In this document: positions 5,902 through 50,504 of the stretch, in pieces
Layout: each line of letters starts with the position of its first letter
How positions within the stretch are numbered: position 1 is the stretch's first letter
Assembly: GCA_902634455.1 (NCBI GenBank)
Contig: CACPKQ010000007.1
Coordinates: forward strand, 1-60,124
Direction of reading: 5' to 3'
DNA: 60,124 nucleotides
DNA from: an uncultured Pelagibacteraceae bacterium
Lineage (GTDB): Bacteria > Pseudomonadota > Alphaproteobacteria > Pelagibacterales > Pelagibacteraceae
Position numbers and translations under genes: made by a program
Notes under the pieces: generated by a model
Seen by the model: only the letters and a program-made list of their open reading frames with translations
Database searches by the model: none
What the model was told of the DNA's origin: nothing

Positions 5902-5978
5902 TGGTTGCGGGGGACGGATTTGAACCGCCGACCTCAAGGTTATGAGCCTTGCGAGCTACCAGACTGCTCCACCCCGCG
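5902..5978 (-). tRNA. Initiator tRNA-fMet (CAT)
   Basis: A 77-base cloverleaf on the minus strand with encoded CCA at 5902-5904 and anticodon CAT in the loop CTCATAA. It is the initiator: the first acceptor base is C facing A at 72 (a C1xA72 mismatch), and the D-stem has A11:T24. Acceptor CGCGGGG pairs with CCCCGCA. The anticodon stem reads CAAGG...CCTTG, so the three initiator G:C pairs at 29-31/39-41 are A:U, G:C, G:C instead of the canonical GGG/CCC. It lies five bases downstream of rpsU on the same strand and probably matures from the same transcript. Confidence 0.97.
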
Positions 5979-5983
5979 GTAAT

Positions 5984-6178
5984 TTAAATTCTATTTTTAA
6001 GTTTGTTTAACTTTTTAACTCTTTTTATATTTTCTTGAAGGATTCTTTTTTTTTTTTCTGATGGTTTTTCATAATTATTTTTTAATTTTATTACTTTGAA
6101 GAAACCATCTCTCTGAAGCTTTTTTTTCAAAATCCTCAGAGCTTGCTCTACGTTATTATCTTTAACTTCTATTTTAAT
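5984..6178 (-). CDS. rpsU: 30S ribosomal protein S21, probable ATT start
   Basis: A small basic protein of 64 residues with the alphaproteobacterial S21 pattern: KIEVKDNNVEQALRILKKK, then LQRDGFFKVIKL and YEKPSEKKKR. S21 helps the 30S subunit recognise the Shine-Dalgarno region. There is no in-frame ATG. The family normally begins M-[Q/K]-V-x-V-R-D-N-N, which places the start at the ATT at 6178 (I-K-I-E-V-K-D-N-N). That ATT is preceded by GGAGG with a five-base spacer. The only ordinary alternative, TTG at 6190, overlaps the GGAGG itself and adds four atypical residues. The product is certain; the start codon is inference. It is followed five bases later by initiator tRNA. Confidence 0.9.
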   Translation of the reverse strand: MKIEVKDNNVEQALRILKKKLQRDGFFKVIKLKNNYEKPSEKKKRILQENIKRVKKLNKLKNRI

Positions 6179-6183
6179 AAAAA

Positions 6184-6188
6184 CCTCC
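6184..6188 (-). promoter_or_regulatory. Strong Shine-Dalgarno deciding the rpsU start
   Basis: GGAGG on the minus strand (CCTCC at 6184-6188 on the plus strand), with TTTTT between it and the ATT at 6178. Most genes in the window have a weaker Shine-Dalgarno or none, so this perfect five-base match is conspicuous. The upstream ACCT could pair with AGGT of the site in a four-pair hairpin, too short to claim regulation. Confidence 0.7.
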
Positions 6189-6252
6189 AAAAAGGTGACT
6201 AATTAACACTTTAAAAGATTTTTGTCTATTACTATTACTATTCATAATATTT

Positions 6253-6822
6253 TTATAAGTTTGATTTTAATTTTTCTTTCTCTTTATTTTCTCTTTTTAC
6301 CCTTCTGTTAGCTTTTTCAATTGCTTCAGCTAATTCTTTTTGAGTAAAAAGACCCATTGCAACAGGATCTTTAGGATTTAAATTATTAAAATTCCAATAA
6401 CTTTTATTCCTTATCGCTGATACTGAATTTTTTGTAACTCCTACCAATCTTGCTATTTGTGAGTCTTTTAAAATTGAATGTTGTTTTATTAGCCATAATG
6501 CAGAGTCAGGTTTGTCTTGTCTTTTTGATAATGGAACATATTTTTTTATTTTTTTATTATTGTCAGATATCTCAACATCATAATTATTAATTTTTAATAA
6601 TCTGTTTTTATCTTTTGAAGATAATTCGATTTCTTCTCTAGTTAATTGGCCAGAATTAATTGGATTATATCCCACTATGCCTTTAGCAACCTCTCCATCA
6701 GCTATTCCTTGAACTTCAACTTCATGTAAATTGCAAAAATCAGCTATTTGTTTGAATGTTAAAGTGGTATTTTCAACTAACCAAACAGCAGTGGCCATTG
6801 GCATTAAAGGTGCGTTAGGCAT
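6253..6822 (-). CDS. trcR: DUF1013 family cell-cycle transcriptional regulator (TrcR-like)
   Basis: A 189-residue protein of the DUF1013 family, largely restricted to Alphaproteobacteria and named TrcR, a cell-cycle transcriptional regulator. Recognisable blocks are [46 protein letters not shown], and in the C-terminal half the helix-turn-helix-like [19 protein letters not shown], followed by [12 protein letters not shown] chose ATG at 6822, which gives the family start [14 protein letters not shown]; the frame runs 28 codons further upstream, but that stretch is the rpmE gene read in another frame. It overlaps the end of rpmE by eight bases, so the two are likely translationally coupled. The family name rests on memory of the motif set. 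Confidence 0.82.
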
Positions 6823-7051
6823 TACTTTTTTTATCAGATCTAAAATTTTGAAATTTTTTGTTAAACTTGCTAACTCTTCCTTTATCAAGAAGTTTTTGTC
6901 GACCACCCGTCCAAGCAGAATGTGATTTTGGATCTATTTCAAGTTTAAGGACTTCACCTTCCGATCCCCAAGTTGATTTAGTTTCAAATTGGCTACCATC
7001 AGTCATTTCAACTATAATTTTGTGATAGTTTGGGTGAATTTTTTTTTTCAT
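6815..7051 (-). CDS. rpmE: 50S ribosomal protein L31, cysteine-free form
   Basis: A 78-residue L31 with [18 protein letters not shown] at the N-terminus, [16 protein letters not shown] in the middle and [20 protein letters not shown] near the C-terminus. It contains no cysteine, so it lacks the CxxC zinc ribbon of zinc-binding L31, like most alphaproteobacterial homologues. Its stop overlaps the ATG of trcR. The 35-base gap to suhB upstream suggests the same transcript. Confidence 0.95.
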
Positions 7052-48726: not shown

Positions 48727-50202
48727 CTAAGTACCACAAAAAGTTTGATATTTTTTTTTGTTTGACGGAGCTGGGAACTGATAATTATTAGTTTTTGTTT
48801 GTTTTTTGTATGGTTTTTCCAAAACTTTTAGAAAATTACTAAATGGATTTAAATCTCCACTATTAGCATCTTTCAAAACTTCTTCTATTTTGTGATTTCT
48901 TGGAATGACTAATGGATTTACTGATCGCATTAATTTTAAATATTTTTCTGGTGAACTATCGTACAGTTTTAAACGCTTTTGCCATTTTTCCTTCCAATTA
49001 ACAAATCCTTGATTTTTATAAATTTTACTTTCTTCAATTTTTTCATCCATCAAAAAACAAAAAGTATTTGTGTAATCGGCATTGTTTTTGTGCATCCACG
49101 ATAACAAATCTATGATTAAACTTTCATCATTTGAATCTTCTCCAAATAAACCTAATTTTCTACGCATCATTTCAAACCAACTTTTTTTATATTTTTCAGA
49201 AAAACTATTTATAATTTCAGTTGCTATTTTAATTGCTTTATCTTTATTGTTATCAATTAAAGGAATTAAAGATTCTGCAAATCTTTCTAGGTTCCATCTA
49301 GCAACACTGGGTTGATTAAAGTAAGCATAACGTCCATGGTAATCTATTGAGCTAAATACAGTTTCTGGATCATATCTATCCATAAAAGCACAAGGACCAT
49401 AATCAATTGTCTCACCTGATATTGTCATGTTATCAGTATTCATTACTCCATGAATAAATCCAACTCTCATCCAGTCAATAATTAGCTTGATTTGTTTTTC
49501 AATTACAATCTTTAGTAATTCGATTGCTGGATTTTTATAATCTTTAATATATGGATAATGGCGTTTAATAGTATAATCAAAAAAAGTTTTTAAATTATTT
49601 TTATCTTTGAAAAAAATAGCATACTGAAATGTTCCAACTCGAATATGACTTGATGCAACACGAGTTAGTATTGCACCTTTCAAAGGTATTTCACGCATGA
49701 CTGTTTCTCCAGTTTTAACAACAGCTAAACTTCTTGTAGTTGGAATACCAAGACCATACATTGCTTCACTAATAATATATTCTCTTAACATTGGTTCTAA
49801 AGCAGCTCTTCCATCACCATTTCTCGAATAAGGGGTTTTGCCAGATCCTTTAAATTGAATATCAAAACGTTTATTGTCCTTAGTAATATGTTCGCCAATA
49901 ACAATCGCTCGCCCGTCACCCAGCATTGTAAAATGACCAAATTGATGACCGGCATAAGCTTGTGCAATTGTATCTGAACCTCTGGGCAATAAATTTCCAG
50001 AAAAAATCAAAGCCAAATCTTTATTGGGTATATTAGAAAAATCTAATCCTATTTCTTTTGATAAAGAGTAATTAAAAGCAACAACCTCTGGTGTATTTAC
50101 TGGTATCGGACTTAACTTTGAAAACATGTAATTTGGCAATTTTGTGTAAGTATTATCAAACTGCCAACCTATTTTATCAATATATGAGTGCGACTTATCC
50201 AT
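48727..50202 (-). CDS. selO: Protein adenylyltransferase SelO (YdiU)
   Basis: A 491-residue pseudokinase-fold enzyme that transfers AMP to Ser, Thr or Tyr of target proteins, linked to redox homeostasis. Motifs: GWQFDNTYTKLPNYMFSKL, AYAGHQFGHFTMLGDGRA, FDIQFKGSGKTPYSRNGDG, AALEPMLREYIISEAMYGLG, FIHGVMNTDNMTISGETIDYG and DRYDPETVFSSIDYHGRY. The C-terminus ends QTFCGT, with Cys at the antepenultimate position where animal homologues carry selenocysteine. The ATG follows the tmRNA coding piece by a few bases. Confidence 0.95.
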   Translation of the reverse strand: MDKSHSYIDKIGWQFDNTYTKLPNYMFSKLSPIPVNTPEVVAFNYSLSKEIGLDFSNIPNKDLALIFSGNLLPRGSDTIAQAYAGHQFGHFTMLGDGRAIVIGEHITKDNKRFDIQFKGSGKTPYSRNGDGRAALEPMLREYIISEAMYGLGIPTTRSLAVVKTGETVMREIPLKGAILTRVASSHIRVGTFQYAIFFKDKNNLKTFFDYTIKRHYPYIKDYKNPAIELLKIVIEKQIKLIIDWMRVGFIHGVMNTDNMTISGETIDYGPCAFMDRYDPETVFSSIDYHGRYAYFNQPSVARWNLERFAESLIPLIDNNKDKAIKIATEIINSFSEKYKKSWFEMMRRKLGLFGEDSNDESLIIDLLSWMHKNNADYTNTFCFLMDEKIEESKIYKNQGFVNWKEKWQKRLKLYDSSPEKYLKLMRSVNPLVIPRNHKIEEVLKDANSGDLNPFSNFLKVLEKPYKKQTKTNNYQFPAPSNKKKYQTFCGT

Positions 50203-50203
50203 T

Positions 50204-50470
50204 AATTTTTTTAGGGGCGTTCTGTTGCCAGGTGCCCCGAACCCCGTAACTTAATTAAAAAATTAATTAAGCTGCAAGTGCAAATTTATTATTTGCATTT
50301 GTAAATTAGCCCGTTACGGCGGAACAATACCGAACGAAAGAATAACTTTTAGACACCCGTCGATTCTAGTTCACCCCCATAAGTTGTAATTGGTGGAGGT
50401 GGTGGGTACTGCCCCCACGTCCGCAATGGTTATTACGAAATTCGTTTATCGTCGTAGTTGGAAAACCAAC
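50204..50470 (-). ncRNA. ssrA: tmRNA, circularly permuted two-piece form
   Basis: On the minus strand the acceptor piece comes first (about 50470 to 50391, ending ...CACCTCC-A-CCA), then a 12-base intervening segment (50390-50379), then the coding piece starting GGGGGTGAACTAGAATCGAC at 50378. GGGGGTG pairs with CACCTCC, with a G3:U70 wobble, the alanine identity element. T-stem GTGGG/CCCAC closes the T-loop. The tag codes ANNKFALAA and stops in a hairpin; CCGTAAC and GTTACGG form the helix enclosing the tag region. The permuted form is typical of Alphaproteobacteria. Outer ends are approximate; 5' GTTGG/CCAAC (50455-50468) makes a hairpin near the start. Confidence 0.95.
50267..50296 (-). other. 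tmRNA tag reading frame (ANNKFALAA-stop)
   Basis: Nine sense codons and TAA on the minus strand. The hydrophobic LAA end is the proteolysis signal recognised by ClpXP-type proteases. The TAA lies in the arm of a perfect inverted repeat, CTTAATTAA, TTTT, TTAATTAAG. The resume codon is taken as the GCA at 50296 by analogy; the tag could begin a codon or two earlier. Confidence 0.88.
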
Positions 50471-50476
50471 ATCTTT

Positions 50477-50504
50477 AATATAAAACGTTAATTCAAAGAT
50501 TCAA
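50477..50504 (-). promoter_or_regulatory. Probable sigma-70 promoter for ssrA
   Basis: On the minus strand TTGAAT (50504-50499) and TATATT (50482-50477) are 16 bases apart, placing initiation near 50470, just before the GTTGG hairpin. The -35 element lies only about ten bases from the divergent thyX ATG, so both genes share this very short control region. Confidence 0.45.

Follow-up and report, generated by a model that had tools for sequence, protein, structure and literature searches.

A conserved AUU start codon behind a strong Shine-Dalgarno sequence at rpsU of Pelagibacteraceae

Main Finding

The rpsU gene, encoding ribosomal protein bS21, was located on a 60,124-nucleotide contig of an uncultured Pelagibacteraceae bacterium (the window, meaning the whole stretch of DNA that was analysed). 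Judging from comparison with related loci, rpsU of this family almost certainly begins at AUU, a non-AUG codon. The identity of the start and its conservation, an exceptional Shine-Dalgarno (SD) sequence ahead of it, and a swap among relatives between a weak codon with the SD and AUG without it have all been shown by such comparison. The favoured explanation, which is rather probable, is that initiation at rpsU depends on the SD and is throttled by a weak start codon, AUU in this family and AUA in its sister family; the arrangement probably limits or controls the amount of bS21. We infer that the weak start lowers and tunes bS21 output in SAR11, with bS21 homeostasis as its purpose. SAR11 bacteria rank with the most abundant cells of the ocean, and their rpsU start appears uncallable by gene finders limited to ATG, GTG and TTG. 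The features of the locus, in window positions, are as follows.

5984..6178, minus strand: rpsU coding sequence (bS21, 64 residues), PF01165 54.9 bits, start (ATT) inferred from relatives
6176..6178, minus strand: ATT start codon of rpsU, from conservation in the genus and in other genera
6179..6183, minus strand: 5-nt spacer whose last two bases are T, from the constant -1 and -2 positions in genus rows
6184..6188 (GGAGGT 6183-6188), minus strand: GGAGG SD of rpsU, from conservation and predicted pairing strength
6188..6190, minus strand: TTG, rejected start candidate, absent from many relatives
6189..6193, minus strand: T run at -15 to -11, ahead of GGAGG, near-constant within the genus
6200..6228, minus strand: promoter-like element, TAGACA (6228-6223), N14, TGTTA (6208-6204), from conserved spacing
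5902..5978, minus strand: initiator-type tRNA-Met (CAT) gene directly downstream of rpsU, from tRNA search and genus loci
6253..6906, minus strand: TrcR (PF06242, 188.6 bits), gene upstream of rpsU, region used for the tree

The rpsU Locus and Its Start Site

The start region of rpsU on the minus strand reads TTTTTGGAGGTTTTTATTAAAATAGAAGTT, and a longer reading of the locus is TTTTTGGAGGTTTTTATTAAAATAGAAGTTAAA. The frame opens after TAA 6205-6203 and its stop codon ends at 5984. The product was identified as bS21 by the PF01165 profile, with a score well above the cut-off of 27 bits, and is the sole match to that profile in this genome, which is estimated to be 81% complete. The next genes upstream encode TrcR and bL31. 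There is no internal methionine in the 64 residues. The sequence-only reading had found no ATG in frame near the start, and this is borne out in the window, where the sole ATG, GTG or TTG in the frame between the TAA and the ATT is TTG 6190-6188. That reading also held that this TTG overlaps the GGAGG and lacks a ribosome site of its own; the overlap is indeed one base, and no SD-like word is seen ahead of the TTG in the window. Its central claim, that rpsU starts at ATT 6178 with GGAGG five bases ahead, is strongly supported: the start is kept across two families and is forced by stop codons in many relatives.

Start Codon Among Relatives

A pattern search across 399 genus genomes placed ATT at the rpsU start in 276, whilst a codon beginning with A and not ending in T was found in 23 (ATG 16, ACG 5, ATC 2, ATA 0); the remaining 100 match neither pattern, and the patterns excluded codons beginning with C, G or T. 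In the subset of 57 genomes with completeness of 90% or more and little contamination, the corresponding numbers are 50, 5 and 2. Chance or an assembly error as the source of the ATT was ruled out by its presence in 276 of the 399 genomes. Across 111 loci, a set that includes the window itself twice and some genomes twice, the start is ATT in 105, ATG in three, ATC in two and ACG in one. ATT is also the start at each of 15 loci drawn from five further genera within the family. Of 35 sister-family loci, 34 have ATA and one has ATC, with the start sitting one codon further upstream. The non-AUG starts of both families, AUU, AUA, AUC and ACG, all fall outside AUG, GUG and UUG. As for the conservation of GGAGG-N5-ATT, GGAGG or GGGGG with ATT is kept in most of the genus, and the codon is ATG, ACG or ATC in the 23 genomes and nearly always ATA in the sister family. 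Homologues with an ATG in a different place had been named as evidence that would count against the ATT, and in the genus AUG arises at exactly the ATT codon.

The frame holds no ATG, GTG or TTG upstream of the start codon, back to the preceding stop, in 14 of the 15 other-genus loci, 32 of the 35 sister-family loci and seven of 102 genus ATT rows (duplicate rows were merged in the genus-set counts of upstream starts, spacing, swap and bS21 residues). A non-AUG start is consequently forced in these loci, short of an unseen frameshift. The upstream ATG of three sister-family loci and one other-genus locus is 11 to 16 codons away and ahead of the SD.

A start at TTG 6190, which would make bS21 four residues longer, could be suspected because 95 of the 102 genus ATT rows have the TTG in frame and a GTG lies two codons before the ATT in eight genus rows. 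It is nevertheless most improbable, since the TTG is absent from the other seven ATT rows, from all 15 other-genus loci, from all 35 of the sister family and from all 16 ATG rows. One of the seven TTG-less rows (L073) has an in-frame stop just upstream, the window has no SD-like word to serve the TTG, and AUG, where present, occupies the ATT codon, the TTG being gone there together with the SD (16/16).

A start at the ATA two codons later was also considered and rejected, as the changes to ATG, ACG and ATC hit the ATT codon and the third codon is ATT or GTA in L216 and L219. Codon usage speaks against the start ATT being an ordinary isoleucine codon: in 108 rows the start is ATT in 102, ATC in two and ATA in none, and inside the gene ATT, ATA and ATC occur 341, 231 and 19 times. 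Little weight is placed on this contrast, because a single isoleucine codon inside the gene can be just as invariant, codon 3 being ATA in 107 of the 108. The bare string GGAGG-N5-ATT is not enriched genome-wide, with 16 matches against 44 in the reversed control, so that the evidence rests on the rpsU context and its conservation.

One further locus, L373 (genome G339, C6:70500-71600), keeps the ATT and GGAGG of rpsU, and an eight-T run shifts its frame after DGFF; as the remainder is readable in another frame, this is likely a homopolymer assembly error.

Shine-Dalgarno Sequence, Spacer and Anti-Shine-Dalgarno

Every one of the 105 genus-set rows with a start other than ATG has GGAGG or GGGGG; the spacing is 5 in 104 of them and 4 in the remaining one. 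Within the spacer, -1 is T in 105 of 105 rows and -2 in 103, and -3 and -4 are variable, as are positions -16 to -21. A U at -1 helps weak start codons. The five-T run before the GGAGG is T in 100 to 105 of the 105 genus rows at each of its positions, and is not kept in other genera.

The predicted pairing of the rpsU SD (GGAGGU against an 8-nt anti-SD) is -10.0 kcal/mol, and values in other genera range from -10.0 to -11.6 kcal/mol. For comparison, 220 ORFs of more than about 100 codons were taken from 260 kb (the window and ten 20-kb stretches, ~24% of the genome); none reaches -10.0 kcal/mol at its first ATG or a nearby start, the best being -9.3, and the mock region reached -10 kcal/mol once. 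SDs are barely commoner than in the mock region, with 20 ORFs against 13 pairing at -4 kcal/mol or below, and an SD-like word is absent from 42 of 55 ORFs in the window alone. GGAGG-N4-10-ATG occurs 112 times genome-wide, against 82 in the reversed control, so a comparable SD may be present at some other genes.

The anti-SD is intact, reading GGATTACCTCCTT in this genome and in seven of ten other genomes, and GGATCACCTCCTT in one further genome of the ten; the search gave no match in the other two, G037 and G255, the latter having an ATG start at rpsU. With GGATCACC the query for the 16S tail found no match in this genome, and with N in that place it returned GGATTACC.

Swap Between a Weak Codon With the Shine-Dalgarno and AUG Without It

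In a set of 132 rows, the SD accompanies every start other than ATG and no ATG start. GGAGG or GGGGG is present in 107 of 107 ATT rows, six of six ACG rows (five genomes, one of them twice) and three of three ATC rows, or 116 of 116 with one genome twice, and GGAGG is missing from all 16 ATG rows. The genome counted twice is G007 (L148 and L315), which is also in the tree twice. None of the 107 ATT rows has an SD weaker than GGAGG or GGGGG. A quick tree was built from the upstream stretch together with rpsU, 50 of its 123 inner branches being weak. Ten of the ATG rows form one clade (support 99), and the other six group with six ACG rows in a second (support 98). Supported branches yield three independent contrasts, all with loss of the SD alongside ATG, and with three contrasts only, significance is out of reach (sign test, p 0.25). 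Fisher values take no account of kinship among the rows. The only bS21 residue change linked to the AUG start is at residue 10, V to I.

No link between an ATG start and a weaker SD was found class-wide, where the median pairing is -7.7 for 14 ATG starts and -7.2 for 54 GTG starts in other alphaproteobacterial loci. As ATG-start SDs are not weaker outside these families, the swap is a local pattern. It does provide a natural experiment on the trade-off between start codon and SD, with relatives that have AUU or ACG with an SD and relatives that have AUG without one.

Leader and Neighbouring tRNA

TAGACA and TGnTA are exactly 14 bases apart in 114 of the 115 rows that bear TAGACA, among 126 rows read, and something resembling TAGACA-N14-TGnTA is visible by eye in the sister family. 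If TAGACA-N14-TGTTA is a promoter, for which it is a candidate, the implied leader is roughly 15–20 nt, which would offer hardly enough space for RNA structure. When four stretches were folded, the results were unremarkable (z-scores of 0.20 to 0.98), and an Rfam search at the locus returned just the tRNA and one match below the gathering score. A short ORF ahead of rpsU (ATG 6245), with a stop codon that overlaps the ATT, was noticed by eye in the window and set aside; its frame looked unequal in neighbours.

A tRNA-Met (CAT) gene lies beside rpsU once per locus in 29 genus loci, and 110 such genes were found over 110 loci. In the window, as in the genus loci, its sequence shows a C1.A72 mismatch, which we take to be a mark of initiator tRNAs. 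Initiator tRNAs usually have three G-C pairs in the anticodon stem; in the window tRNA an A-U replaces one of these, and there are five sequence types over the 110 genus loci. The adjacency of this tRNA to rpsU in genus loci could be read as coupling, with the two forming one unit and the AUU start reporting the level of initiator tRNA. Such coupling is quite improbable, as the tRNA is absent from three of 15 other-genus stretches (present in 12) and the sister family has the ATA start yet no tRNA in the stretch (0/5 and 0/10). Elsewhere in the window, a tmRNA gene at 50176-50485 on the minus strand carries the ARAGORN asterisk flag, denoting the permuted form, with the tag ANNKFALAA.

Comparison With the Class, Control Genes and Viruses

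Among 90 other alphaproteobacterial rpsU loci (30 best-scoring and 60 hand-picked, of 184 genomes with a match), the start was read as GTG in 54, TTG in 16, ATG in 14, ATC in four and ATA in two, from alignments to the N-terminus of the family in which ATG, GTG and TTG were given preference. On these readings a weak start seems to be the norm for rpsU across the class, and the order to which the window belongs seems to carry the trend furthest. For rpsO, the control gene, ATG stands at the family start in 25 of 30 loci and 6–7 codons further in at the other five; in the class, 16 of 16 loci have ATG. In the window's family, infC starts with GTG directly after a TAA, so that the AUU-type feedback of IF3 on its own gene is not seen there.

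In the sister family infC appears by eye to have ATA behind GGAG (L113, L116-L123, L126, L127, L129, L133, L134 and L139). Twelve viral bS21 genes (L317-L328) start with ATG in 11 cases and GTG in one, none with AUU, and no GGAGG is seen by eye within the 70 bases shown.

Proposed Mechanism and Alternative Readings

At a throttled, SD-dependent rpsU site, GGAGG(U) would recruit the 30S subunit through the intact anti-SD, and the third-base mismatch of AUU with the initiator anticodon would slow commitment, a step policed by IF3. Synthesis of bS21 would then be held to a ceiling dependent on SD pairing and on initiation stringency, with few other ORFs having an SD. Passages of two sources describe IF3 as discriminating against AUU, AUC and AUA (PMC4611024; PMC5472188), and one of them describes the canonical triplets AUG, GUG and UUG as not discriminated (PMC4611024). 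In further work, Staphylococcus aureus AUU and AUA starts with strong, extended SDs gave yields below AUG in reporters (PMC13009471), and Streptomyces sigR has a GTC start behind AGGAGGTG and is repressed by IF3 (PMC5472188). By analogy, SAR11 rpsU should be SD-dependent and limited in output. One point against an attenuated site is that AUG lineages live without the device; since AUG forms occur in at least two clades, the weak start is dispensable.

The rival readings, whose odds overlap with those of the attenuated site, differ in what is sensed, and any particular sensing by the rpsU start is less likely than the attenuated site itself. A fixed set-point with no sensing is a real possibility, if somewhat short of an even chance: a weak codon and a strong SD would compensate for each other and lineages would drift along a ridge of equal output, of which AUG without an SD is the other end. 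The loss of the SD in 16 of 16 ATG rows is what such compensation predicts, but the combination of AUU or AUA with GGAGG is maintained in two families and several genera, and no SD falls below GGAGG or GGGGG in the 107 ATT rows. Feedback through IF3, in which rpsU output would follow the IF3/ribosome ratio and tie bS21 to initiation stringency, fits what is known of AUU-type codons but is judged unlikely. The starts AUU, AUA, AUC and ACG are all outside the triplets that IF3 does not discriminate against, as given in part of one review (PMC4611024), and sigR and infC offer precedents in passages of another paper (PMC5472188). On the other side, 70 of the 90 other class loci were read as GTG or TTG, which by the same review passages IF3 does not discriminate against (PMC4611024), and the AUG forms in at least two clades do not single this feedback out.

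Slightly less likely again is autoregulation of the Flavobacterium kind, in which ribosomes free of bS21, and so with a free anti-SD, would start on the strong rpsU SD, and the weak AUU would suppress starts by replete ribosomes, so that rpsU would be read mainly when bS21 is short. The scarcity of SDs, the intact anti-SD and rpsU as the apparent standout agree in outline with the system described in PMC9976891, and according to a review S21 would collide with the SD helix in the position that this helix takes in ribosomes lacking S21 (PMC4611024). However, the rpsU SD here is ~6 bp (-10 kcal/mol), as opposed to 9–13 bp and under -13 kcal/mol in Bacteroidota. A tyrosine at residue 40 or beyond is absent from 126 of 126 genus bS21 rows, so Tyr54 has no counterpart; initiation is said to be disturbed generally when bS21 is lost (PMC9723584); and the AUG lineages lost the SD. 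A two-key lock on this principle, also a doubtful prospect at about the same level, would join an exceptional SD, in a genome where SDs are few, to a start codon that is too weak to work on its own, making rpsU readable mainly by 30S subunits short of bS21. If that were true, self-regulation of bS21 would have arisen independently of Bacteroidota, using a shorter SD. The natural pairs make bS21 sensing through initiation testable outside Bacteroidota.

Comparison With Known Systems

No description of an AUU-start rpsU or bS21 in SAR11 was found among open-licence papers and the listed titles and abstract openings. A weak start with a strong SD is already known as a kind; what was not seen described, within the open-licence literature, is its use at rpsU, its occurrence in two families and the natural swap.

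Autoregulation of rpsU in Flavobacteriales (PMC9976891) concerns the same gene and likewise appears to pair an intact anti-SD with an exceptional SD against a background of few SDs, but the SAR11 SD is shorter, the start codon is weak and an equivalent of Tyr54, which stacks on the 16S tail in Flavobacteriales, is absent. The standing of rpsU as the standout SD was seen in 24% of the genome among ORFs of more than about 100 codons, and the genome-wide 112 against 82 leaves room for others. The extended 9–13 bp SD and the stacking of Tyr54 are both missing from SAR11 rpsU, and given the shorter SD and the missing tyrosine, membership of the Flavobacteriales type is not claimed.

Escherichia coli infC (AUU) and Streptomyces sigR (GUC), both repressed by IF3, resemble SAR11 rpsU in having a non-canonical start (passages of PMC5472188 and PMC1780047), and sigR also in combining a conserved start with a strong SD (PMC5472188, in part). 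Here, by contrast, the product is bS21, and infC of the window's family has GTG. Like infC, sigR and ccpN, rpsU has a start outside AUG, GUG and UUG that is conserved and lies behind a strong SD, the start being read by comparison. The AUU and AUA sites of Staphylococcus with extended SDs (cvfC1, ccpN and infC; PMC13009471) are similar in their conserved non-canonical start and unusually strong SD. The lower yield was shown there by reporters (PMC13009471), whereas the rpsU site is known from sequence. SAR11 rpsU differs further in being a ribosomal protein gene, in another phylum and in a genome with few SDs, with relatives that have swapped to AUG and lost the SD.
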